Origin: Gemmatimonadota bacterium
GTDB taxonomy: Bacteria > GCA-2686955
NCBI GenBank assembly: GCA_002686955.1
Contig: NYZA01000063.1
Location: forward strand, 1-11,400
Direction: 5' to 3'
DNA length: 11,400 nt
Below the pieces are notes generated by a model that saw only the letters and a program-made list of their open reading frames with translations, was not told the DNA's origin and did not search any database. Below, in pieces: positions 1 through 11,400 of the stretch (positions are counted from its first letter, which is position 1; every line of letters begins with the position of its first letter). The position numbers and the translations under genes are program-made.

Positions 1-186
1 GCTCCGGGGGGGGAGCCGCTCCGGTCGGCGGAGACCTGCGAGCGCGCGCTACGTTCAGTTAGACTGGCGATAGCATCAATCACCAAAGGGTCGGAAAACA
101 CGTTCCCACTGAATCAGTAGACTACATCGGTCGCGCCAAGAAGTGAGTTGACGCCTCGGTGCAGGATACTCGGACTTGAGATCATC
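1..186. other. Left-edge non-coding leader of the cassette
   Basis: No gene is supported here. The first 16 bases form a small inverted repeat (GCTCC, G-run, GGAGC). A plus-strand frame is open from base 1 to TAG 118-120 but shows no recognisable protein features, so it may or may not be the tail of an upstream gene. The promoter of the three-gene cassette should lie in this stretch, but I see no convincing -35/-10 pair. Confidence 0.4.
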
Positions 187-843
187 ATGGCAGTACAGCA
201 GGTGGAGCAGAGCGTTTCGATCGTCGTCCTCGGCGCATTCAATCCCTCGATCTTCTTACCTGGGTGGTTCGCCAAAGAAGACCTAGTTCGGGAGAAGGAC
301 GCCGAGTCGGCGGAGATCGAGATCGTGCATCCGGAAGTGACCGTCTTTACGTTGGATTGGCTTCGACTGGAGGCAACTCGCGAACGCCTTGTGGTTCGCT
401 CAGATCGCGAATCACACTACGAGGTCGCCCGCGACCTTGTTTGCGGAGCGCTCGACCTGCTGCGCCACACGCCTGCTGGGAAAGTAGGAGTCAACCACGA
501 CGTTGTGTTCGAGTGCGGTTCACGCGAGGCCTTCGACAATTTCGGCTGGAAGCTCGTGCCGCAAGGCCCATGGAATCAAGTCTTGGATCGACCAGGGACT
601 GCCCGGATCGACGAGCAAGGGCGACGTACGGACGACTACGACGGGTACATTAGGGTGAGAATCGAGCCGATACTGGACGGGGGGACGAGGGTCCGCGTGG
701 GTGTCAACGATCACTTCGAGCTGTCGAAGGAAAACTCGTCTTCATCAACTGAGTGCATCAGCGCACTGCTGCAAGACGAGTGGGCGACGATCGCCAAGCG
801 GGCTTCTGAGATCCTGAGTCACATGAAAGGCCTTGTGAGATGA
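187..843 (+). CDS. Uncharacterised protein, first gene of three-gene cassette
   Basis: This encodes a soluble protein of about 218 residues with no signal peptide or membrane segment. I chose ATG 187, preceded by GAG at -9; a TTG at 148 would add 13 residues. The protein opens with a hydrophobic strand and a Phe-Asn-Pro turn (SIVVLGAFNPSIFLPGWF). Next comes an acidic stretch (EIEIVHPEVTVFTLDWLRLE), then 'LLRHTPAGKVGVNHDVVF', 'GWKLVPQGPWNQVLDRPG', 'YIRVRIEPIL' and a C-terminal helix. I recall similar hypothetical proteins with the FNP, LRHTP and G-x-N signatures in diverse bacteria, but I know of no assigned function and cannot name a family. Its stop overlaps the next start (ATGA at 840-843), so the two products are probably made together. 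It may be a structural or sensor partner of the hydrolase two genes downstream; that is inference. Confidence 0.8.
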   Translation: MAVQQVEQSVSIVVLGAFNPSIFLPGWFAKEDLVREKDAESAEIEIVHPEVTVFTLDWLRLEATRERLVVRSDRESHYEVARDLVCGALDLLRHTPAGKVGVNHDVVFECGSREAFDNFGWKLVPQGPWNQVLDRPGTARIDEQGRRTDDYDGYIRVRIEPILDGGTRVRVGVNDHFELSKENSSSSTECISALLQDEWATIAKRASEILSHMKGLVR

Positions 844-1385
844 GCCACTCATCAGCAGCAGTCACACCGCGGCCGAAGGACACCGCGGTTTTGGAAGAGC
901 GTATTACGCCCGTAGTCAAGATCCCGTCTATGGCCCGCAAGTGGCCAGCCGGGGAAACGTATGAGACGCAGCTGGGCAACGCATGCCGATCTGAGACGCC
1001 GATGCCCAATACATTGCCAGTGGTTCCGCCAAAGAAGCTGCCGGAGAGAAGCCGAATCCAACCAAGCTTTGTCGCATTGCAGAAGTGGGAGGGCCGAGTC
1101 CTGGAGGTCGGCGACTCCACTTTTTCGGCTGTCGTCGAGGATTCGGTCCGAAGGGGCGTTGAAGAGGAGGTGGAGTTTGATCTGGAAGAGATCGGTCCAG
1201 ACGATCGGAATCTGCTCAAGCCTGGGGCGATCTTCTACTGGACCATCGGCTATCGTACTGAGCCATCGGGGGAGCGTAGCCGGTCTTCGGTTCTAGTGCT
1301 GCGTCGTTTGCCTGCGTGGAATGAAGAAGGGCTTCAGAGGGCAAGACGACTGGCGGAAGAGCTTCGGAAGCGCTTCGACTGGTGA
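840..1385 (+). CDS. Uncharacterised small acidic protein, second gene of cassette
   Basis: This 181-residue protein has two parts. Residues 1 to about 75 are rich in Pro, Arg, Ser and Thr, look unstructured and contain no hydrophobic segment. Residues from about 78 to the end look like a small beta domain followed by a helix: 'FVALQKWEGRVLEVGDSTF', an acidic stretch (EEEVEFDLEEIGPDD), then 'LLKPGAIFYWTIGY' and 'SVLVLRRLPAW', ending in a charged helix. The start ATG overlaps the previous stop and has AAAGG about 9 bases upstream, inside the previous gene. Its own stop overlaps the GTG of the hydrolase gene (GTGA at 1382-1385). No enzyme motif is visible. The combination of a disordered tail and an acidic beta domain would fit an adaptor or regulatory subunit, but nothing in the sequence proves that. 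The later ATG at codon 31 ('MARKW') is a possible alternative start. Confidence 0.78.
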   Translation: MSHSSAAVTPRPKDTAVLEERITPVVKIPSMARKWPAGETYETQLGNACRSETPMPNTLPVVPPKKLPERSRIQPSFVALQKWEGRVLEVGDSTFSAVVEDSVRRGVEEEVEFDLEEIGPDDRNLLKPGAIFYWTIGYRTEPSGERSRSSVLVLRRLPAWNEEGLQRARRLAEELRKRFDW

Positions 1386-2467
1386 GCAGCCGGCCCCCTG
1401 CCAACGACGTGGTCGAGGTGACTGTTCTCGGACCTGGTCGAGGGGAATGCTGTGTACTGCACACAGGTCGAGGTGAGTGGCTTGTTGTAGACAGCTGCGT
1501 GATGAAGGACGGTAGCCCGGCGGCCCTGGCCTATCTTCGAACCATTGGGGTGCCAGCGTCCGCGGTAAGGTGGATTGTGGCAACCCACTGGCATGACGAT
1601 CACGTGCGTGGCCTCGCAGATCTCGTTGAACAGTGCAGCAACGCCACCGTCTACCAGTCAGCCGCGCTCTGTAGAGATGAGTTCATGAGGCTCGCAGCGA
1701 TCGGAAACGACGCCATGATCGAAGGATCCTCGGGGGTCAAGGAGATGTGGACAGCCTGGACTCATCTCGCAGACAGCGGGAGAAGCGTGCCGCATTTGGT
1801 GCGAGCAGATCAGAGGATCTACTTGCGAGACGACCAACGCGATCCATCCTGTGAGATTTGGTCTCTTTCTCCAAGCAATAGCTCGATGGTGGAGGCCTGC
1901 TTGAAATTCCGTTCACTGATCCCGAAGGAGCGAGAGCCCAAGCGCGCTGTCCCACGGCCGAAGAGAAACCCGGCTTCTGTCGTCGCGTGGGTCCGCACTG
2001 GCCAGGCCATTGTGCTGCTCGGTGCCGACCTGGAACGGTCAAGCGATCGAGAACGCGGGTGGCAAGCCATTGTGAACTCGGCCGGTAGGCCTACTGACAA
2101 GGCGCAGCTGGTCAAAATCCCCCACCACGGCTCGGAGAACGCTCATGATCCGCAAATGTGGACTGAGTTGCTCGTTTCCGACCCGTATGCTGCCGTCACG
2201 CCTTTCAGCTGCGGTTCGGTGCGACTACCCAAGAAGAGCGACCGATCCCGGATTGCCGAGCTCTCCTTTGGAGCGTGGTTGACACGTGACACCATGCTCA
2301 CACGAACTATCAGGCGTTCGAGGACAGTTGACAAGACATTCCGCGAAGTGGTTCGAAGAAGCGAACTACTGTCCGTCGATCCGGGGCGTGTGACCTTCCG
2401 TTGCCATGCAGACAATCCCGAGGAGTGGGAGGTCGATGCTCCTGACCCCGCCGTTCGACTGACATGA
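1382..2467 (+). CDS. MBL-fold metallo-hydrolase (ComEC-like, soluble)
   Basis: This 361-residue protein carries the metallo-beta-lactamase metal-binding signature 'ATHWHDDHVRGL' (H69, H71, D73, H74). It also has the bridging aspartate D216 in 'LLGADLE' and the late histidine motif 'KIPHHGS' (H248, H249). The PHHGS and LGAD forms are typical of the ComEC/Rec2-like branch, which includes hydrolases of nucleic acids or phosphodiesters. The usual third motif histidine is not obvious, as is common in that branch. There is no signal peptide or membrane segment, so it should act in the cytoplasm, unlike full-length ComEC. The N-terminus reads 'VTVLGPGRGECCVLHTGRGEWLVVDS', the first beta-hairpin of the fold. 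Translation starts at a GTG overlapping the previous stop, so synthesis is coupled to the two upstream genes. As the only recognisable enzyme of the cassette it is its likely effector. The substrate is unknown. Confidence 0.9.
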   Translation: MSSRPPANDVVEVTVLGPGRGECCVLHTGRGEWLVVDSCVMKDGSPAALAYLRTIGVPASAVRWIVATHWHDDHVRGLADLVEQCSNATVYQSAALCRDEFMRLAAIGNDAMIEGSSGVKEMWTAWTHLADSGRSVPHLVRADQRIYLRDDQRDPSCEIWSLSPSNSSMVEACLKFRSLIPKEREPKRAVPRPKRNPASVVAWVRTGQAIVLLGADLERSSDRERGWQAIVNSAGRPTDKAQLVKIPHHGSENAHDPQMWTELLVSDPYAAVTPFSCGSVRLPKKSDRSRIAELSFGAWLTRDTMLTRTIRRSRTVDKTFREVVRRSELLSVDPGRVTFRCHADNPEEWEVDAPDPAVRLT

Positions 2468-2505
2468 ATGCTCTATGAGCTGGTGCCATGGTTGCGAGTG
2501 CAGCT

Positions 2506-2937
2506 TCACTTCCTTTCCCATCTCGGCCGACTATCCGACCGCGCCGCGGAACCTGTCCACGAATTGTCGTGATCGAATGAGCCGCTTCCGAGCGAAGCCT
2601 CGACGACCCAGTGGCCCTCGTCCACGCGCCGCGCCCCTTCTTCGAGCGTCTCCCGCACCGAGAACGACTCGACCAGATCGGTCTCCAGCGTGGTTCTCGT
2701 TCGGCTCCAGCCTCCACCGATCGCGAAGAGCGCTTTCGGTCCGAGCGGCTTGGCCCAACGGCCACGACAGCCGAATATGCGGACCGATCGGCTGCCCGAT
2801 TCTCTGTCGATCAGATCGAGATCGTCGTCGATGACGCCGCCGAGCGCGAGGCTTCGAAACGATACGGGATCTTGTGCCGAAGAAGAGGTGGCGCATACCG
2901 ATGCAAAGACCACCACAGCCATGATTCGTCCGCTCAT
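2506..2937 (-). pseudogene. Truncated exported protein with GGVIDDDLDLI motif
   Basis: An open frame of 143 residues starts at ATG 2937 behind a strong purine-rich ribosome site (GGAAAGGGGGAAGG, from 2952 down to 2939). The longer frame to 2973 only adds residues upstream of the signal peptide. Residues 1-21 form a signal peptide ending SSSA before Gln22. Residues 27-43 read 'FRSLALGGVIDDDLDLI', which I recall at the mature N-terminus of larger exported proteins from FCB-related candidate phyla. Those continue for several hundred residues as probable outer-membrane beta-barrels. Here the frame soon ends, about 40 bases from the end of the three-gene cassette, and the last 25 residues are Ser/Arg-rich and unlike a barrel end. 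I infer the 3' part is lost. It lies 16 bases behind the stop of another relic on the same strand, so the two were once an operon. It could instead be a genuine short protein. Confidence 0.55.
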
Positions 2938-2953
2938 CGCCTTCCCCCTTTCC
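2938..2953 (-). promoter_or_regulatory. Ribosome binding site for 2937 start
   Basis: Reading the minus strand, the bases just before ATG 2937 are an unbroken purine tract containing GGAAAGGGGGAAGG. The tract sits between the upstream relic's TAA (2954-2956) and the ATG. It fixes the start of the truncated exported protein at 2937 rather than at the in-frame ATG at 2973, which lies inside the upstream coding remnant. Confidence 0.6.
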
Positions 2954-3098
2954 TTATCGATTGACCAGAACACTGTCCGGATCGGTGATCGTCATGCTCA
3001 GAGTATCGGAGCTGTCCGAGCTCTCGAGCTCGCCGGAGGCGATGAGGTAGTAGCTGTACATTTCTCCGATCTGAAGAGCGGCGCCGGCGAACGCCATC
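2954..3098 (-). pseudogene. C-terminal stub of a secreted FN3-like protein
   Basis: Reading the minus strand from about 3098 down to the TAA at 2954-2956 gives about 47 sensible residues. They include 'GAALQIGEMYSYYLIASGE' and end '...SMTITDPDSVLVNR'. The pattern 'L-x-I-G-x-x-Y-S-Y-x-L-I-A-S' is like the last strands of a fibronectin type III or similar beta-sandwich domain in a secreted protein. Going upstream the frame meets a TAG at 3107-3109 after only a few more codons. No start is present, so the 5' part of the gene is gone. It sat directly upstream of the truncated exported protein that starts at 2937. The opposite strand becomes sensible coding sequence right where this one stops, which suggests a deletion junction near 3075-3100. 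Too short to name further. Confidence 0.5.
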
Positions 3099-3350
3099 GA
3101 CGCGTACTACGACCAGAAATGCGCCTCATGCCACGCCGACGACACGCCGACCTGCAACGGCTGTCATCAGCATGGGGGTTACCTGCTCGAGCCTCAGCCG
3201 GACCAGCTCAGCTACGCCCCGGGAGAGAGGGTGCGAATCACCTTCGAGGGAGGGCGCGAATTCGGCTGGGTGCGCGGACGCTTGGAGGATGAGCGTGGCA
3301 CTGAGATCGGTCGCCGCACGGGACCGACCTTCTCGGGCGACGACGGCTGA
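3075..3350 (+). pseudogene. Cytochrome c-like fragment with two CxxCH motifs
   Basis: The plus-strand frame between TGA 3072-3074 and TGA 3348-3350 has no good start codon but reads like a real protein fragment. It begins near 'DAYYDQKCASCH' (heme-binding CxxCH at 3120-3134), has a second CxxCH 'CNGCH' at 3153-3167 and then 'HQHGG'. After this come 'YAPGERVRITFEGG', 'GWVRGRLEDERGTEIGRRTG' and 'FSGDDG'. CxxCH covalently binds heme in c-type cytochromes. The 'SYAPGE..V.V.F.GG...GW.RA.LYD..G.E..RSTGP...GDDG' module is one I recall after such motifs in secreted multiheme-like proteins. The frame stays protein-like past the TGA ('PLEFPLELAGRAPG'), so the stop looks like a nonsense mutation in an older, longer gene. 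The 5' end is missing at the junction with the minus-strand stub. Most likely a decayed extracytoplasmic cytochrome gene. Confidence 0.6.
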
Positions 3351-3522
3351 GCGCCTCTGGAGTTTCCCTTGGAGCTCGCAGGACGGGCGCCTGGGCGGGT
3401 AGGGGGTGATGAATATGAACAAATAGCCGATCGGACGAGCAGTGCGCGATGGGCGGCGCCGGTGCCAGCCATGGATGCCGTTCAGTGATTGACGCGCGCA
3501 CAAACCGGACGATGAGATCGAG

Positions 3523-5463
3523 ATGAAGGCTCGGGCATTGGCTTCTGTATGGGTTCTCGCTAGTTCCGCCCCGGCGTTGGATGTTGGCATCAATTGTGGC
3601 GGGACCGAGTACCAATCTCACTCGGGGGTGACCTACGAAGCTGATCGGCAGTTCGTGCCTGGTGATATGGGGGCGGAAGGGGGGCGGCCAGGGCCCGCCC
3701 TGAGCGGCAGCCGTATTCAGCACCGCTTCGACAGCCCGCTCTACGCTCGCACCCGCATCGCTGCCGATGCTTACATCTTTGATGACCTCTCCAATGGTTG
3801 GTACGTCGTCACGATTGCCTTTGCGGAAGTCGAGAGTCAGCCCCCTGGGGCACGGGTCTTCGACCTCGTCATCGAAGGCAACACCGTGCTCTCCGGATAC
3901 GACGTGCACGCCGAAGTGGGGCCAAATACACCGGCCGACTGGGCCTTCGCCGTAGAGCTGACCGACGGCGAGCTCCGCATTGATCTGGCACCCAGCTCAG
4001 GTGAGACCACGGTCAGTGCCGTGCGCATCACCAGCGTAATTCCCAACGGCGAGACTCCGCCTTCGCCCGCCAACTTCAACGTGCACAATGGCTACGGCAT
4101 GGCCATCATCGCGTGGAATCCACCAGACTCACCTCTCGTTGCGGCCCACAACGTCTATGTCGCCGACTCGGCTCACGGCGACTATCAGCTCCTGGCTCAC
4201 ATCCCACATCGCACCGACCACTACTACGATCGCTCCGCGGAGCCCGGGCGCACCAACTACTACCGGGTTGAGGCCGTTGACGTGTTTGGCAATATCAGCG
4301 AGCCGAGTGCTCCACTTGCCGTCACGCCACTCGATCTCGCCGCCACTGACCTGCCGCGCTATGAACTGGAGGTGACTCAAGAGAATCTTGCCGGCCTAAT
4401 TGCAGATCCTCTTTCCGATGAATACGTTCCAGCCGTATTCCGCCATGATGGCGACACCTACGATGTCGACGTGCGTCTGCGCGGCGGCACCACCCGCGGA
4501 GCGCCCAAGCGCTCCTGGCGCGTGAAGTTTCGTCCTCCCTACACATTTCACGACGCCTCGGTGTTGCTGCTCTCAGCGGAATGGACATCGACCATGCTGC
4601 TCAACTCCGACATTGCATGGAATTACTTCGACGCTACCAATGTCGCCCACTCCAACGCGGACCTGATTCACCTGGAGCTGAATGGCGAGTATGTCGGCGT
4701 TTCTACCGAAGTGGAGAGTCTGGACGAAGAGTTCTTGGTGAAACGCGGAGAAACGATCATTGGCGATCTCTACAAGTGCGCCAGCGCCATGAAGAAACAG
4801 TCAACAATGGAGAATTGGGAGCGCTTTTACGAAAAAAAGACAAATGAAGATGCACCGTCCACCAGCGTGATCGACTTCGTGACTGCCGTCAATGATACTC
4901 CAGACGAGGAATTTGCCGCGTTCCTGGACCATACATTCGATATCGATCGCTTTGTCGACTTCTATGCCGTGCAAAACATCGCCTCTAACTTCGACTTCGT
5001 CAAGACGAACTACTATCTCTACAATGATCCCGACAATGGCAAATGGCGGATCCTGCCCTGGGACCTCAGCGCCGCATTTGGCTACCCGGAGGAATCCGTC
5101 GCGATCGGGTCAAACGAGAACGTCCTCTACCGACGCTTTCTGTCGGTGCCCCAATTCCGTCTACGCTATGTGGTGCGGGCGTTGGAGCTCATGGCAACAG
5201 CGATCAATGACTCCATTTGGCGTCCGCGAATCGAGGATCGGTACGACTACGTAGAGCTCGATGGTGAGCTCGATATCGAAAAGCGCTATGCACATCACAA
5301 CGACGTGTTTGTGCGCGCACCAATCACGCTGCCCAATGCACTGGCCGATCGCGTGGCATTCATGGAGGTGGCCGCGCCGGCCTACGCCGCTGAAATCAAC
5401 TGGCTCTTGATCAATGAAATTGTCATCGATGGCCTGAGGGCACGGACGACCTGGTCGAGCTGA
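3523..5463 (+). CDS. Secreted CotH kinase protein, N-terminal part (malectin-FN3-CotH)
   Basis: The frame gives 646 residues. A short signal peptide (MKAR, a hydrophobic run to about residue 15, APA at 16-18) precedes a malectin-type carbohydrate-binding domain at about 19-173 ('DVGINCGG', 'YVVTIAFAEVES', 'VFDLVIEG'). An FN3 domain follows at about 177-272. A CotH kinase domain spans about 277-620, with 'GAPKRSWRVKF' (K329 and K335), 'NFDFVKTNYYLY' (489-500) and 'GKWRILPWDLSAAFG' (506-519). CotH proteins are atypical protein kinases, first described for the Bacillus spore coat and since found in many modular secreted proteins. From residue 628 a lamin-tail domain begins ('LLINEIVIDG') and then breaks: a one-base frameshift near 5431-5435 sends the frame to TGA 5461-5463 after the residues 'LRARTTWSS'. 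The rest of the protein is in another frame and is listed next. Probably exported and surface-bound; substrate unknown. Confidence 0.88.
   Translation: MKARALASVWVLASSAPALDVGINCGGTEYQSHSGVTYEADRQFVPGDMGAEGGRPGPALSGSRIQHRFDSPLYARTRIAADAYIFDDLSNGWYVVTIAFAEVESQPPGARVFDLVIEGNTVLSGYDVHAEVGPNTPADWAFAVELTDGELRIDLAPSSGETTVSAVRITSVIPNGETPPSPANFNVHNGYGMAIIAWNPPDSPLVAAHNVYVADSAHGDYQLLAHIPHRTDHYYDRSAEPGRTNYYRVEAVDVFGNISEPSAPLAVTPLDLAATDLPRYELEVTQENLAGLIADPLSDEYVPAVFRHDGDTYDVDVRLRGGTTRGAPKRSWRVKFRPPYTFHDASVLLLSAEWTSTMLLNSDIAWNYFDATNVAHSNADLIHLELNGEYVGVSTEVESLDEEFLVKRGETIIGDLYKCASAMKKQSTMENWERFYEKKTNEDAPSTSVIDFVTAVNDTPDEEFAAFLDHTFDIDRFVDFYAVQNIASNFDFVKTNYYLYNDPDNGKWRILPWDLSAAFGYPEESVAIGSNENVLYRRFLSVPQFRLRYVVRALELMATAINDSIWRPRIEDRYDYVELDGELDIEKRYAHHNDVFVRAPITLPNALADRVAFMEVAAPAYAAEINWLLINEIVIDGLRARTTWSS
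5431..5463 (+). other. Frameshift site splitting the CotH protein
   Basis: The upstream frame ends 'INEIVIDG' at 5431-5433 and then loses sense, reaching TGA 5461-5463. The other frame reads 'PEGTDDLVELINV' from 5433. Together they make a continuous lamin-tail start (INEIVIDG-PEGTDDLVELINV) if one base is missing after 5432. No homopolymer or heptameric slippery site lies here, which argues against programmed frameshifting. A real mutation or a sequencing/assembly error are the two plausible causes. Confidence 0.8.
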
Positions 5464-5468
5464 TCAAT

Positions 5469-6842
5469 GTGGGACCTGAATCGCTGAGCATCGCCGACTA
5501 CACGCTCACCGATGATCTGGCGGATCCGAGCAAGTGGACGGCACCCGCTGTCACGCTCGGCCCCAACGAGCTGATAACGGTTGTTGCTCAAGGAGTGGCG
5601 GTGGAGAGCCGCGACATCTATCTCTTTTCGCCACCCGCCAATGGCGGTCAAATGTTGGAGCACATTTCGTTTCCCAGCCTCGAGCACGACCAGGGATGGG
5701 CACGCCTCGAGGATGGGTGGGTGCATTGGGGTGTGTTGCCTTCCACACCAGGCCAGAGCAATGGCCTTCATCGTGCACCACGTGTGTGGGCGGCACGCCA
5801 TACGCCTCGGTACCCGGCAGTAGACGATACTATCGTGGTGACGGTTTCGGTGGTGGATGCCGATGACAATCTTGAAAGCGTCATTGTTGCCGGAGATGTC
5901 GATGGGGAACCATTCTCGATCGCCATGCATGATGATGGCCGGCATCTTGACGGCGCGCCGGCCGATGGACGCTTTGGCGCCGAGATCGGTCCCTTCCCAT
6001 CCGCGACCGAGGTGCACTACTTCATTCAGGCTGTTGATGCCGAATCGCTGCAGACCTTCGCGCCACTGGACGCGCCGCAGGAGCACTACACCATATCAAT
6101 GGGCGCTCACCCGCTGACCTTGAACGAGCTGATGGCAGCCAACGACACGACCATCGCGGATTCGGCCGGGGAGTACGACGATTGGCTGGAGCTCCATAAC
6201 GCAGATCCACAGCACACTCTACAGCTCGGCGGGATGTTCTTGAGCGACAGACGCGACGATCCGACCAAATGGCGTTTCCCCTACGGCACCACCATTGCTC
6301 CCGGCCAAGTGGTGCTCGTATGGTGCGATGAGGATGCGTGGCAAGAGGGTCTGCACACCAATTTCAAGCTCAGGGCGGCCGGCGAGTTTCTGGTGTTGAT
6401 GGACAACGACGGTGTCACCGTGCTCGACTCGCTCTCCTTCGGCCAGCAACAGAACGACATTGCCCTGGCCCGCGTGCCCGACGGCGACGGTCACTGGTTC
6501 AGTAGCGACCCAACGCCCGGTGCGCTGAATGTGCCCGATGGAATTGGCGAACGGCGCGATGCCGACCAGCCGCCGGGCCTCGTTGTCGGCCCCAATCCAT
6601 TTGATGCCGGTGTGACCATCAAGGCTCGTTGGCGCGGCGACCGCGCTCAGCTACGAATCTATGACGCTCGGGGGGCGCTAGTGCGCACGCTGCTGCAATC
6701 GCGGGACTCCATGCGCGGCGGCGCCATCGTGGTTTGGGATGGCATCACCGATCTTGGATTGGACGCAGCCTCCGGCAGCTACATCTGCCGGCTCGAGACC
6801 GACACGGAGATCTACACCACGCGCGTGGTACGGGTGAAGTAG
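5469..6842 (+). CDS. C-terminal part of the CotH protein (LTD-Ig-LTD-sorting tail)
   Basis: The frame opens at GTG 5469, but sensible sequence in this frame starts earlier: from 5433 it reads 'PEGTDDLVELINVGPES', which completes the lamin-tail domain begun in the preceding frame. Restoring one base would give a single protein of about 1,106 residues. Domains in the 457-residue part are: rest of lamin-tail domain 1 (to about 105); an Ig-like domain at about 107-212 ('MHDDGRHLDGAPADGRFGAEIG'-type loop); lamin-tail domain 2 at about 218-353 ('LNELMAANDT...DDWLELHN', 'LRAAGEFLVLMD'); and a FlgD-Ig-like tail at about 371-457 ('LVVGPNPFDAGVTIK', ending 'TTRVVRVK'). The two lamin-tail domains share a 'DDPTKW/ADPSKW' motif. 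The tail type serves as a cell-surface sorting or anchoring module in FCB-group bacteria. The piece has no signal peptide and a poor ribosome site, so it is unlikely to work alone. Confidence 0.8.
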   Translation: MGPESLSIADYTLTDDLADPSKWTAPAVTLGPNELITVVAQGVAVESRDIYLFSPPANGGQMLEHISFPSLEHDQGWARLEDGWVHWGVLPSTPGQSNGLHRAPRVWAARHTPRYPAVDDTIVVTVSVVDADDNLESVIVAGDVDGEPFSIAMHDDGRHLDGAPADGRFGAEIGPFPSATEVHYFIQAVDAESLQTFAPLDAPQEHYTISMGAHPLTLNELMAANDTTIADSAGEYDDWLELHNADPQHTLQLGGMFLSDRRDDPTKWRFPYGTTIAPGQVVLVWCDEDAWQEGLHTNFKLRAAGEFLVLMDNDGVTVLDSLSFGQQQNDIALARVPDGDGHWFSSDPTPGALNVPDGIGERRDADQPPGLVVGPNPFDAGVTIKARWRGDRAQLRIYDARGALVRTLLQSRDSMRGGAIVVWDGITDLGLDAASGSYICRLETDTEIYTTRVVRVK

Positions 6843-7004
6843 CAAGGGTCCAGGAGCCTGCCGCGACGCCGTATTGTTGACCGCACCGTTTTCCGCGCTC
6901 ACCATACCGACCACCGGCTGGGGCTCGCACTGGACGTTCACGTCGGTTTTGCCATCTTCCCGGTACTCGGCCTCTCTGTTCGGTGGACGAGCGCGACGAG
7001 GTCC
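6843..7004. other. Convergent intergenic spacer
   Basis: This spacer lies between the stops of two converging genes. I find no GC hairpin followed by a T-run on either strand, so no classic terminator can be called. A minus-strand frame across 6870-6990 is open but lacks a ribosome site and any recognisable motif, and I do not call it. Confidence 0.5.
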
Positions 7005-8630
7005 CTACTTGAGCATCAGCAGGCGCGTAGTCCGCTCGGCCCCGCCACTCGACAGACGCACGGTGTAGACGCCTGAGGCCAATGCGCTCCCGCGCTCATC
7101 CCGTCCGTCGAAGCTCAGGGTGTGGGTTCCCGCCGGCCGGCGGCCCCGCGCCAGCGTGCGCACGAGGCGGCCGCGCAGATCGAAGACGCTGAGTCCGACG
7201 TCCGATTCCTCGGTGAGCGTGAAGGAGATGTGGGTCTTCGGATTGAAGGGGTTGGGGCTAGCCGCGTGCAACACCGCCCCGGACGACGCGGATGGAAGTT
7301 CGTCGCCGATACCGGACGCATTCTTCAGGTAGAACACCTCGATATCGTCGACGTACCAGTAGAGATAGTGGGACTCGGCGGTGCCTGTGCCCGCCCTGAA
7401 ACGCAAGCTGACCGACGCCTCCCCGATGTGGTTCGATAGATCGACCACGCGCTCGCCCCAGTCCGACGCCCCATTCGGGTCGAATCTGTCGATCTCGGCC
7501 CACTGGAGCCCCCCATCGGTAGAGACATCGACGAGAGTGTTGGCGCCTTCCCCGTCCCCACTCATCCGCTCCTGCCACCGGATCCGAGCCGAGACCATGT
7601 CGAGATCGCCCGAGAGATCGAAGGGCGGCATTTCGATCGCATTGTCCAGCGGAAGAAGGTTGTGGTCGGGGGCGAAGTAGCTGCCGTCGGACCGGTTGCT
7701 CTCTGGGTCGCCGACGTAGAGCCCGTGTGGGATCGAGTTGTAGACCGGCCGGCCGTCGGGCTGCGGGTGAGTGTCGTCCACGATGCTCCACCAGTCGCCC
7801 GAGGCGGGAGTCGCCGCTCCCCGCGGTGTCCACTCCGGCCTCTGCGCGCCCTCCATGCCGTCCTGGAAGTAGGTGTCCGAATCGGTGTTCGCGACCTTGA
7901 CATCGTCGATGAACCAGGGGGAATCGAAGCCGACCCAGGCGGAATCCTGATTGGAGTTGTATGCATCGGACGCGAAATCGAAGCGCACGATGATCTCGCT
8001 ACCGATGTAGTCCGAAAGGGCGAAGGTGACCTCTTCCCACTCCGGAATCAACTCGCCGGACCAACCGGGGACGTCCTCCTCGCCGTCCTGCAGGAAGAAG
8101 GCGTAGATGGCGCTGTCCGGATAGCCCTCTTGCGGCTCGATCACGCTCCAGGTTGTGCCACCATCGGTCGACAATCGCGCCGTTCCCCCATCCCACGTGT
8201 CGAATGGGGGCGAGGGAAGCTCCCACTCGCAGTCCACGAATTGCCAATAGGTCAGGCCAACGGTTCCCGAGGCGGCGCTGAGGTCGATGTCGAGGTCGAG
8301 CTGCTGCCGCCACATGTTGCCGTAGCCGGTCCACTGCGGGGTCTCGGTGCCGCACCACCAAGCGCCCGTGCCCCCATGCGTGTTCCGGCCGTCGATATGC
8401 CAATGGCTTTCGGTGGGCAGATCGGTGAGATCGGTCGCCAACCAGCCATCTGGGAGGGAGGCCACGGCCGTGGTGTCGAAGCTCTCGCGCGTCACCCAGA
8501 TCGTGTCGAAACCGACCGCGGTGACCACCGGCGGCTCGAGCGCGACTTCCCTCGGCTTCAGCAGGAGATCGGCGGCCGAGGCGGGACCGCCCAGAGCGAC
8601 GAGTGTGACCAGTGCTAAGACCTTGCGCAT
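7005..8630 (-). CDS. Secreted two-domain MAM/jelly-roll protein with FlgD-like sorting tail
   Basis: This encodes a 541-residue exported protein. The start is ATG 8630, preceded by GGAGGGAAAG; the in-frame ATG at 8642 lies upstream of that site. Residues 1-19 form a signal peptide ending ASA before Ala20. Two related beta-sandwich domains of the MAM / immune-inhibitor-A type follow, at about 48-250 and 254-440. Each has a 'STDGG..W..I' strand and a late 'FIDDV' or 'YVDDIEVFY' strand, and the first has 'VRFDFASD'. No protease HExxH motif is present, so this is a binding or structural protein rather than a peptidase. The C-terminus (458-541) is a FlgD-Ig-like tail with 'SPNPFNPKTHISFTL', 'VFDLRGRLVRTL' and 'ASGVYTVRL', a module used for surface sorting in FCB bacteria. 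It converges on the CotH gene, which ends in the same kind of tail. Ligand unknown. Confidence 0.88.
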   Translation of the reverse strand: MRKVLALVTLVALGGPASAADLLLKPREVALEPPVVTAVGFDTIWVTRESFDTTAVASLPDGWLATDLTDLPTESHWHIDGRNTHGGTGAWWCGTETPQWTGYGNMWRQQLDLDIDLSAASGTVGLTYWQFVDCEWELPSPPFDTWDGGTARLSTDGGTTWSVIEPQEGYPDSAIYAFFLQDGEEDVPGWSGELIPEWEEVTFALSDYIGSEIIVRFDFASDAYNSNQDSAWVGFDSPWFIDDVKVANTDSDTYFQDGMEGAQRPEWTPRGAATPASGDWWSIVDDTHPQPDGRPVYNSIPHGLYVGDPESNRSDGSYFAPDHNLLPLDNAIEMPPFDLSGDLDMVSARIRWQERMSGDGEGANTLVDVSTDGGLQWAEIDRFDPNGASDWGERVVDLSNHIGEASVSLRFRAGTGTAESHYLYWYVDDIEVFYLKNASGIGDELPSASSGAVLHAASPNPFNPKTHISFTLTEESDVGLSVFDLRGRLVRTLARGRRPAGTHTLSFDGRDERGSALASGVYTVRLSSGGAERTTRLLMLK

Positions 8631-8640
8631 CTTTCCCTCC
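8631..8640 (-). promoter_or_regulatory. Ribosome binding site for 8630 start
   Basis: On the minus strand GGAGGGAAAG lies immediately before ATG 8630, giving a GGAGG core with about 5 bases of spacing. It decides between the in-frame ATGs at 8630 and 8642: the upstream ATG would place this site inside the coding region and put extra residues before the signal peptide. Confidence 0.7.
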
Positions 8641-8917
8641 ATGGACGGCGCCCCGGCCCGGCCTTGTTGATCGGGTTGTGGGCGGGGCCGCCGCGGGGCG
8701 ATCGGGTGGGGGGCGTTGGGATTGCGCCTGTTGGGCGAAGAGTAGCATCGAGGACGGCCTTGCGCGCGCCCCTTAACGAGGTCGGTCGAGCTCTGGGCGG
8801 CGCCGTGGTCATCGCTGATACCGCCCGGAGCGTTGCGGCCGATGTTCCCACGCCCAGCCCCGACCGACACTCAGGGTCCGGAAAAAAACAAACGGTGGCG
8901 GATCGTGGTCGATTCGA
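8631..8917. other. Non-coding leader between methyltransferase relic and secreted protein gene
   Basis: This stretch of about 290 bases lies upstream of the secreted protein gene (minus strand) and downstream of the methyltransferase relic. Open frames through it are Pro/Arg-rich, change register and resemble nothing. On the minus strand there is a T-run at 8882-8892 close behind the relic's stop, but no convincing stem precedes it. I looked for a -35/-10 pair for the 8630 gene and found none with acceptable spacing. The promoter presumably lies here but is not visible to me. Confidence 0.4.
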
Positions 8918-9216
8918 CTACTTGACGGCGCGCGCGGTGATATGGAGACCGAAGAGACCGCGGAGCGTCTTGGAGCGCGCTTCCAAGAAACGTGTGAACG
9001 CGACATAGGGGCCGAGTAGGGCATGGGGCAGGCGAGACGAGATTTCGTCATTGAGCAACTGGGCCGATTCGACTGAAGCATCGGAGAATCCCGCCCCCCT
9101 CAAGAGCTCCCTGTACTTCGCTCTCGAGATGGATCTCCTTACAGGGTGGCGGCCTTGTCGACCAAGTGATCCAGAACCTCGGAGCTTACGACCAGATCAA
9201 TGCTCTCACTTAGGTT
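8918..9216 (-). pseudogene. Decayed C-terminal half of a SAM methyltransferase
   Basis: Two further pieces of the methyltransferase gene lie downstream of its zinc-ribbon fragment, in different frames. The first, about 9216 to 9139, reads 'RLNLSESIDLVVSSEVLDHL' then 'VDKAATL' and hits TAA. This is the class I methyltransferase strand around motif IV ('DLVVSSEVLDHL'). The second, from about 9140 to TAG 8918-8920, reads 'SISRAKYRELLRGAGF' and ends 'LFGLHITARAVK', a typical methyltransferase C-terminus. Missing are the SAM-binding glycine loop (motif I) that should precede the first piece and the 'L-K-P-G-G' strand that should separate the two. So at least two internal segments are lost and the frame is shifted at each break. 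No active enzyme can be made. Its neighbours suggest it once modified an envelope glycan or lipid. Confidence 0.65.
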
Positions 9217-9491
9217 GAGGCGTCGGCTGGAATCCCGCGTTGTCGATCCCAGTCGTAGATAGAGTTCCAGTCCTCTCGCCCCTCGTACATGCTCTCGAAC
9301 TCTTGTACCGACCAGCCCTCCTCTTGCCAGTTGTCGTCGATCACCCGAAAGTCCACGATCTCGTCGTTGGCCGGATACTTGTGACCGCAAGAAGAGCATT
9401 CGAGATGATCCCCTCCATGCGCCTCGTTGCCATCCACGCGAATCGCGGCCTTGCAGATCGGGCAGGCCAGGTTGTCAAGCAGGGTCTTCAT
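9210..9491 (-). CDS. Zinc-ribbon N-terminal fragment of a SAM methyltransferase
   Basis: An open frame of 93 residues starts at ATG 9491 with GAAAGGA upstream. Residues 4-52 form a Trm112-like zinc ribbon: 'LACPIC' (C10, C13) and 'LECSSCGHKYP' (C32, C35), followed by 'NDEIVDFRV'. This is the usual N-terminal domain of a class of SAM-dependent methyltransferases, which continue with 'W...YD..R.GIP' and then the Rossmann fold. Here the linker is present ('EDWNSIYDWDRQRGIP'), but the frame ends at once with 'ADAST'. The remaining methyltransferase pieces lie out of frame downstream (8918-9216). The start and ribosome site are intact, so a short zinc-binding protein could still be made, but I regard it as the front end of a broken gene. 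It lies 151 bases downstream of the glycosyltransferase stop, on the same strand. Confidence 0.65.
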   Translation of the reverse strand: MKTLLDNLACPICKAAIRVDGNEAHGGDHLECSSCGHKYPANDEIVDFRVIDDNWQEEGWSVQEFESMYEGREDWNSIYDWDRQRGIPADAST

Positions 9492-9642
9492 GCCACGTTC
9501 CTTTCACGCACGTCGGAGCCGCCGGCCGCGCGCGAGCAGCGAGGCAGCTTTTACGCTACCGATCGGCCGAGCGCAAGCGATCGCCACAACCGAATGGCCG
9601 CGACCTCAATTTGTCGAGGATCACGCACATGACAACAGCTAC

Positions 9643-11304
9643 TCACCCTTTCAACCGCCAAACCCGAATCGTGGGCCCCGGTCGTTCGTAGCCGCCAAAC
9701 CCGGCGATCGGCGCATAGTACGCATCGATCGGATCGAAGACTCCGTGCCTTTCTTCCCCCCGCGGCCCCGGCTCGAAGACCACGACCGGCTCGGCGCCCC
9801 TCTCCAACTCCGCCCGCAGCTTGAAGTGCAGCGCCGAATATAGCGACAGTTCGTGTTCGTGGGTGAGGACCCACGGGAACGACTCGCGGTCGATCATGCC
9901 CAATCCCGCCCGCGGATCGACCATCCGCAGCGTGGAAAAGAGGGCTTCGTCCGGGCAAACCGGTGGCTCCACTTCGAGGGTGAGGATCTGGCACCACTCG
10001 AGCCCCGGCAGGCGCGGCTCGCCGTAAAGGCTCCCCTGCCCTCCCGCGAGAACGACGCCTTCGTCCGCGCGAACATGCTCGCGGAGCCAGCGGGCCGCCA
10101 GCTCACGGGTGTCGGTGCGCCCGATGATCCGCGCGTGTCTGATCGACGCGGCCAGCGCCGGCGCGCCCAGGGCGAGCGCGAGCAACGAGGTGACGACGAT
10201 TCGTCCGGTGCGTGCCGACTGGATTCGCTCCGCGACTACCCTCACCGCCAATCCCGCGGTGATCGCAAGCACCGGCAAGATCGGAATCATGTAGCGAAAG
10301 AAAACGGTGCGTCCGGTGCCCATGGCCAGGTAATAGAGGAGCGCGAAAGCCAGCGGCGGCAAGAACGCTCGGTGCCGGCGCGGGCGCGCAATCGCGATCA
10401 ACACGCCGAGAAGCGAGGCGAAGAGCAGGGGCGCCGTGAGAGCGAATCGCAGGGTGTCCGTGAAATGGTAGCGAAATCCGATCCCCAAATCGCGTCCATG
10501 CCCCTCCGAAATATGATGCGACTGGAAGGCGAAATCGCTCGCGAATCGATCGAAATCTAGAACGATGAATGGGTTGATGGCGAAAAAGACCGCCGTGGCA
10601 ACACTCGCGACGACGAGGACCGCGACGATCGACTCTCTGGATCGCCATCGGCTCCAGAAAAGTGCTACCGCGGGCGCGATGCCGACAAGCGCGGCGTTGT
10701 ACTTGATCGCACCGGCGAGGCCGACCCACAGGCCCGCAACGACCAGATCGCCTCCGTCATTCCCCCCATCCGCTCTTCTTCGCCGCAAGCGCTCCGCCCA
10801 GAGCAACGCGCAAGCCACGGCCAGAGTCACCGGAACATCGGTGACGCCGAAACGGGAATCGCGCACGTGGAGCGGAGCGACCGCCAGAAAGAATGCCGCC
10901 ACCGATCCGGTCCCCACGATTCGCCGGGAGAGTAGAGCTACCACACCGACTGTTGCCACCCCGCAGAGCGCGGAAGTGAGGCGGGCGGCGAGCAGCCAAG
11001 GAGTCGGATCGGAAACGTAGGCGGCGTGGAATGCGCCCACATCGCTCCAGGTACCGGTCGCGATCCCGATCCGGGCGGCCGTGGCGAAGAGCCAACGGAG
11101 CAGATAGAGCCACCCCGCGGGGTACTCGAAAAAGCCGGGCGAATGGGTCCCCGAGAGCAGCATCCTCATGACACGGGTGGTCACGTTCGCCTCGTCGGGG
11201 CGCGCCCACCAATCGGGAAAGCCGAAATCGATCGACCAGAAGCGCAGGAACGCGGCGAGGAGCAGAACCAGGGCGATCAACAAGCGCTCCGCGCGCTCAC
11301 TCAT
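9643..11304 (-). CDS. GT-C family membrane glycosyltransferase (PMT/ArnT-like, GT39 type)
   Basis: This is a 553-residue integral membrane protein. It starts with a transmembrane segment (8-23), followed by an extracytoplasmic loop carrying 'WARPDEAN' (D37-E38). In the PMT/ArnT superfamily an acidic pair in this first loop is the catalytic and metal-binding site. About ten further hydrophobic segments run to about residue 385, including 'VPVTLAVACALLWAERL', 'DLVVAGLWVGLAGAIKYNAA' and 'FFRYMIPILPVLAITAG'. A soluble C-terminal domain from about 398 to 553 ends in 'IRVWRLKG'. Such enzymes transfer sugars from polyprenyl-phosphate donors to lipids, glycans or proteins on the outer face of the inner membrane. 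The start ATG overlaps the stop of the upstream ABC exporter gene (ATGA at 11301-11304), so the two are coupled. Acceptor and donor cannot be told from sequence. Confidence 0.88.
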   Translation of the reverse strand: MSERAERLLIALVLLLAAFLRFWSIDFGFPDWWARPDEANVTTRVMRMLLSGTHSPGFFEYPAGWLYLLRWLFATAARIGIATGTWSDVGAFHAAYVSDPTPWLLAARLTSALCGVATVGVVALLSRRIVGTGSVAAFFLAVAPLHVRDSRFGVTDVPVTLAVACALLWAERLRRRRADGGNDGGDLVVAGLWVGLAGAIKYNAALVGIAPAVALFWSRWRSRESIVAVLVVASVATAVFFAINPFIVLDFDRFASDFAFQSHHISEGHGRDLGIGFRYHFTDTLRFALTAPLLFASLLGVLIAIARPRRHRAFLPPLAFALLYYLAMGTGRTVFFRYMIPILPVLAITAGLAVRVVAERIQSARTGRIVVTSLLALALGAPALAASIRHARIIGRTDTRELAARWLREHVRADEGVVLAGGQGSLYGEPRLPGLEWCQILTLEVEPPVCPDEALFSTLRMVDPRAGLGMIDRESFPWVLTHEHELSLYSALHFKLRAELERGAEPVVVFEPGPRGEERHGVFDPIDAYYAPIAGFGGYERPGPTIRVWRLKG

Positions 11305-11400
11305 GCGACCGATCCGCCTTCACTCGCGGAGGAGGCGCCGAGCGCATCCTCCTCGCCTTCCTCCTGCAGTGCATGCAGTCGGCTGTAGATCCCCCCGGCC
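11301..11400 (-). CDS. ABC exporter (MsbA-like), C-terminal end only
   Basis: Only the last 32 codons lie in the window. On the minus strand they begin 'AGGIYSRLHALQEEGEEDA' and run to the TGA at 11301-11303. 'GGIYSRLHALQ' matches the usual extreme C-terminus of fused permease-ATPase exporters of the MsbA type, where 'GxYxxLxxxQ' follows the His-switch region of the nucleotide-binding domain. A Ser/Gly/Ala-rich tail follows. The stop overlaps the ATG of the glycosyltransferase, so the pair is translationally coupled. Together they suggest export and glycosylation of an envelope lipid or glycolipid. The family call rests on a short motif, so other type I ABC exporters are possible. Confidence 0.6.
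   Translation of the reverse strand, partial: AGGIYSRLHALQEEGEEDALGASSASEGGSVA

Follow-up and report, generated by a model that had tools for sequence, protein, structure and literature searches.

The question raised by this locus is whether three overlapping genes at the edge of a draft genome contig, two of them encoding proteins of unfamiliar sequence and the third an MBL-fold hydrolase, form a single cassette and what such a cassette might do for its carrier. The window analyzed here is the whole stretch of 11,400 nucleotides from a Gemmatimonadota bacterium (assembly GCA_002686955.1, contig NYZA01000063.1, positions 1 to 11,400 of the forward strand) and forms the very start of contig 63 in a 4.28-Mb draft genome. 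The three reading frames, termed P1, P2, and MBL, overlapped by 4 bases at both junctions exactly as given in the preliminary description of this DNA, including the ATGA and GTGA overlaps, and the motifs quoted there for P1 and P2 were present in the window and located at conserved positions (Table 1). The three genes are probably one translational unit. The preliminary description had also placed the cassette against truncated genes. The 3' flank was indeed degenerate-looking, with a short CxxCH-type fragment at about 3,090 to 3,350 and a shortened reading frame on the minus strand, but the 5' neighbor cannot be called truncated because no sequence precedes the window on its contig. The flank in the window itself did not consist of defense genes on the 3' side, the 5' side lying beyond the contig. 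The CxxCH-type fragment (plus strand) carried CASCH and CNGCH motifs and, lacking a start, resembled part of a multihaem cytochrome gene. Further downstream, at 3523 to 6842, a CotH/malectin gene and the next LTD/FlgD-type gene appeared to be a single gene broken by a frameshift near 5,460, with the LTD sequence running on in the next frame.

Table 1. Features of the three-gene cassette in the window
Feature	Position	Strand	Remarks
P1	187..843	+	ATG start, stop at 843; 218 aa; new family
P2	840..1385	+	ATG start; 181 aa; new family
MBL-fold hydrolase	1382..2467	+	GTG start; 361 aa; distant relative of ComEC C-terminal nuclease domain
ATGA stop/start overlap, P1-P2	840..843	+	Read from sequence
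GTGA stop/start overlap, P2-MBL	1382..1385	+	Read from sequence
Predicted OB-fold domain of P2, residues 76-158	1065..1313	+	Structure model and structural matches
MBL metal motif HWHDDH (H69, H71, D73, H74)	1586..1603	+	107/107 homologues
MBL D216 of LGADLE	2027..2029	+	107/107 homologues
MBL HHGS (H248, H249)	2123..2134	+	106/107 homologues

The three genes co-occurred across distant phyla. In an MBL-based scan of species genomes, which retains the most similar loci, all three genes were found at 74 of 80 loci, spread over about 20 named phyla, one of them archaeal (Thermoplasmatota); four of the remaining six loci were cut by contig ends, and P1 was undetected in two (L064 and L112). In viral contigs, some of which were near-copies of one another, 31 of 32 MBL relatives showed P1, P2, and MBL in this order, with P1 and P2 directly upstream. 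Because searches that start from the MBL favor the most similar loci, a P1-first search of about 1,500 genomes was added. All 10 new close matches had an MBL gene downstream, and 9 had a detectable P2; the tenth (L159) had a right-sized reading frame at the P2 position that was similar to the P2 of L160. The same three genes in this order were also found by tblastn on plasmids, in Adhaeribacter, a member of the Bacteroidota, and in Pantoea; the Pantoea plasmid is conjugative, and its cassette lies next to integrases. Gene order and tight spacing recurred in more than 100 loci, far beyond chance: the gap between P1 and P2 never exceeded 28 bases (90 of 90 loci), and that between P2 and MBL stayed within 30 bases at 96 of 101 loci. 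The divergence of the three proteins was correlated (rho, 0.68 to 0.74, against a permutation maximum of 0.18), and the concatenated tree required 26 phylum changes, compared with a minimum of 18. The nearest relative of the window cassette, at 57% identity, was found in an actinomycetotal MAG (Candidatus Poriferisocius), and the cassette was rare, its frequency being on the order of 1% of genomes. The two outcomes that would speak against a cassette, homologues found mostly apart and a fixed housekeeping neighborhood, were not encountered, linkage being strict from both the MBL-first and the P1-first searches. These results indicate that the three genes are one evolutionary unit that has spread horizontally.

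We examined the two partner proteins by profile and structure comparison. No curated Pfam, NCBIfam, or PADLOC family matched P1 or P2, and searches in Pfam (applied to 92 and 97 members of the families), NCBIfam, PADLOC, PHROGs, and PDB sequences gave no identity above chance; as judged by these profiles, P1 and P2 are families described in none of the curated libraries searched (Pfam, NCBIfam, and PADLOC). Homologue comparison showed conserved FNP...P.WF, G.N, and N.H positions in P1 and conserved E.S..D and GA.F.W.IG positions in P2. The P1 model had very high confidence (pLDDT, 95.6), and by reading of its element order, P1 is predicted to contain two copies of a beta-alpha-beta(4)-alpha unit (TBP-like/helix-grip) and to end in a long helix. 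Its PDB structural matches were mixed and reached Z scores of only 7 to 8.4 (guanidino kinases, AdoMetDC, and TBP), and a fold search (Foldseek, VIA) gave middling, mixed matches, the best viral model being A0A515MGR4 (E = 1e-9), which carries no name. The N-terminal part of P2 (about residues 1 to 75) was modeled at low confidence and is probably a disordered tail. It was followed in the model by an OB fold (about residues 76 to 158) plus a helix, with pLDDT above 90 over most of the OB domain and the expected topology of beta1-beta3, helix, and beta4-beta5. This domain matched eIF5A, cold-shock, and IF1 domains (Z, 5 to 8), and P2 may perhaps bind nucleic acid through it. Because these fold matches are weak (Z of about 8 or less), nucleic acid binding by P1 and P2 is only suggested.

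The window MBL matched general MBL families only, with Pfam PF00753 above the cutoff, as well as PHROG 28593 (function unknown), and was weakly similar to the PADLOC LmuA and RTasMBL models. In a PDB profile search, ComEC nuclease domains ranked first (E = 1e-10). The metal site was complete and ComEC-like (HxHxDH plus later D and H ligands). H69, H71, D73, H74, and D216 were invariant among the 107 homologues and H248/H249 nearly so, the first and last motifs being partly selected for by the search patterns, whereas the patterns did not select for D216, N196, or W227. At the loci to which P1 alone had led, the MBL motifs were retained wherever the MBL sequence extended far enough. ComEC-like MBL DNases act as effectors in several defense systems, in which a protease unlocks them (PMC12799240). 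Because its relatives are ComEC nuclease domains and enzymes of this kind serve as defense effectors, the MBL of the cassette is most likely a soluble metal-dependent DNase effector. In Nitrospirota (L159/L181 and L160/L182), the cassette took a divergent form, with THPHEDH as the MBL motif and a P2 that could hardly be recognized.

Next, we compared the cassette with known systems. The ComEC/Rec2 C-terminal nuclease domain shares the conserved motif set and provides the nearest solved structures, but the cassette MBL is soluble, lacks the competence channel, and lies in a mobile three-gene cassette. Its identity as a ComEC competence protein was rejected, as only the MBL region of this 361-aa protein was matched and no membrane channel domain was present. 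The MBL nuclease-protease modules (AVAST type 1, Lamassu, Hachiman HamM, DRT, and canu; PMC12799240) likewise place a ComEC-like MBL in a mobile anti-phage operon. In those modules a trypsin- or caspase-type protease partner opens the MBL by cleavage, and the gene for the MBL typically lies upstream, whereas in the present cassette the MBL comes last, after two proteins of other families. No protease was seen among the recurrent neighbors at about 110 loci or in the cassette itself, the 5' side of the window lying beyond its contig. Profile scores did not support AVAST type 1 Avs1a (NF041809), for which the window MBL scored 16.0 bits and the three homologues scanned scored at most 24.3 bits against a cutoff of 420. 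The 6A-MBL family (NF058524) likewise has an MBL-fold enzyme, encoded in an operon labeled anti-phage by NCBI; here, the window MBL scored 17.5 bits and the E. coli-type homologue L022 scored 28.5 bits against a cutoff of 220. Three 6A-MBL loci had large partner proteins of other types (E1-like by reading), none of which matched P1 or P2. Filing under trypsin-MBL was ruled out by both the profile score cutoffs and the partner genes. A three-gene system without clear domains at the P2 hotspot of E. coli (3HP) has reported anti-phage activity (PMC9122126) and shares its phage site and gene number with the cassette. The descriptions differ, 3HP having no clear predicted domain and the present cassette a plain MBL; P1 and P2 matched no PADLOC model at an E value of 1, a set of models that may or may not include 3HP. 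Thus, on the features tested, the cassette is distinct from the named MBL-containing systems, and no named system matching it was found in the Pfam, NCBIfam, and PADLOC profiles.

The genomic contexts placed the cassette at known phage-defense positions, namely, a P2-like hotspot, a lambdoid moron site, and restriction-type operons. In four P2-like prophages (L013, L015, L018, and L019), the cassette lay by the genes for portal protein gpQ and replication protein gpA, and in both fully mapped prophages (L013 and L018), it lay between them. The gpQ-gpA site of P2-like phages is a hotspot of anti-phage systems (Rousset et al., PMC9122126). In the related phage ENT4, the gpQ-gpA interval held a gene for a 742-aa ATPase in place of the cassette. 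This ATPase of an Enterobacter phage (L205, 11298 to 13526), unannotated in its record, resembled by eye the anticodon-nuclease ATPases PrrC and RloC. A lambdoid form of the cassette was present in 14 of 5,426 complete E. coli genomes and was located between the holin gene and antiterminator Q in all four of the carrier genomes inspected. The lambdoid variant (L022) was thus matched in E. coli, whereas the P2-type variant (L013) gave no match in this species. Phage 569R4 was 96% identical on the Q side and had two other genes at the cassette site (L204, 4511 to 5972); both are of unknown function, one has membrane helices by eye, and the pair is a candidate for another exclusion system.

Restriction-type surroundings were found in bacterial genomes. 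The cassette lay near DUF499, DUF1156, or helicase genes in five genomes, inside or beside operons of the type DUF499-DUF7680-[cassette]-DUF1156-helicase. At L048, it overlapped the DUF7680 gene and directly preceded the DUF1156 gene of such an operon, and at L104, its neighbors were type I HsdR and HsdM. DUF499-centered operons have been described as BREX-related restriction-like systems (PMC12839542), and the main text of that paper names neither an MBL component nor DUF7680. The DUF7680 protein was encoded between DUF499 and the cassette at L048 (7194 to 7673) and L078 (7145 to 7681). The cassette is nested in or beside the DUF499/DUF1156/helicase operons in several genomes but is also solitary in prophages, on plasmids, and in the window. 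In a comparison that counts families rather than proteins and uses a small control sample, 119 cassette-adjacent genes matched 151 PADLOC families, compared with 63 families for 119 control genes of the same genomes. The leading matches were methylases and restriction genes near the cassette and helicases and peptidases in the control.

In addition to these contexts, an existing label bears on function. The proteins of the E. coli prophage cassette are WP_000143147.1, WP_001024069.1, and WP_001198055.1, and ECOR29 carries a close copy. The P1 homologue among them, WP_000143147.1, bears the RefSeq name "anti-phage protein" in two genomes but is a "hypothetical protein" in a third. Two names for one accession suggest a recent renaming, perhaps after an experiment, and the label indicates that the E. 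coli P1 has probably already been tested by someone; a defense role of the cassette may therefore already have been shown by others. No paper giving the E. coli cassette accessions, and hence no source for the name, was found in the literature searched, and the main text of DefensePredictor mentions no MBL. The cassette had been introduced as undescribed, and this view stood insofar as no named system matched but has to be qualified by the RefSeq label on one P1 homologue.

The preliminary proposal of an accessory or defense cassette built around a soluble MBL hydrolase was borne out by the co-occurrence of the genes, their positions at defense sites, and the lack of a named match. A defense role is well supported by context, and the mechanism proposed below is inferred. 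We consider it probable that this mobile set of three genes is a system directed against phages (more broadly, invaders) in which P1 and P2 control a DNase effector. P1, with its putative duplicated TBP-like fold, and P2, with its disordered tail and OB fold, would form a complex with the MBL that recognizes an invader signal, either phage nucleic acid or a phage protein. Recognition would release or position the MBL nuclease, which could then destroy phage DNA or the DNA of the whole cell, and a prophage-borne cassette would protect its lysogen from competing phages. Because the cassette contains no protease, we infer that P1 and P2 are the sensing and gating parts. No protease, NTPase, or obvious recognition domain was found within the three genes, which leaves sensing unexplained. 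A more far-reaching version is tentative: in an immune system spanning bacteria and archaea, two undescribed families, a duplicated TBP-like protein and an OB-fold protein with a disordered tail, would detect the nucleic acid of invaders and control a ComEC-type DNase with neither a protease nor an NTPase, and this system would have been inserted into BREX-related operons as a prefabricated effector module. If the strict operon of an MBL with two partners of undescribed families and no protease works in this way, it would represent a second means of restraining such a nuclease until the cell is infected. Since E. coli prophages carry the cassette, the question can be addressed in a laboratory strain right away, and with profile models of P1 and P2, automated annotation could pick up the system in the roughly 1% of genomes that have it.

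Other readings are less likely and account for the contexts less well than defense does. In an addiction (toxin-antitoxin-like) module, P1 and/or P2 would silence a toxic MBL nuclease and the benefit would be retention of the prophage or plasmid, with defense at most a side effect. Carriage on mobile elements, sporadic distribution, and tight coupling with the toxic candidate last are in line with this reading; however, it is unlikely given the placement at sites known for exclusion genes, the insertion within restriction-type operons, the RefSeq name, and the large, well-ordered P1, which is unlike small labile antitoxins. Apyc1, an anti-Pycsar enzyme, also has the MBL fold, and in a counter-defense reading, the MBL would cleave a nucleotide messenger with the help of P1 and P2, and phages and plasmids would thereby escape the immunity of the host. 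The frequency of the cassette in prophages and a marginal Pfam match of the MBL to Apyc1 (E = 0.14) fit this reading, but the cassette is not confined to phages, being present in restriction-type operons of bacteria too, two MBL queries run by tblastn against 50,697 deposited phage genomes found no match, and the best solved relatives are ComEC nuclease domains, which makes counter-defense quite improbable. A role in handling the mobile element's own DNA (in uptake, replication, or recombination) rather than in immunity, suggested by the ComEC-like MBL with an OB fold and by the integrases or recombinases near some cassettes, is very unlikely, as the cassette adjoins unrelated element types and is accessory, with unrelated genes in its place in close relatives of the same phages.

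Compared with these alternatives, the anti-phage reading is preferred here. Distant relatives of P1 were considered separately. The weak matches of the P1-first search (E of about 1e-7 to 1e-13) formed a sister family without P2 or MBL, and L154 and L161-L170, checked as a possible contradiction to the linkage, were assigned to this separate family. The sister family (L154 and L161-L170, and the larger L173-L180 and L183) was found mostly in Nitrospirota, and at L176 and L180 it was located near type I restriction-looking genes.
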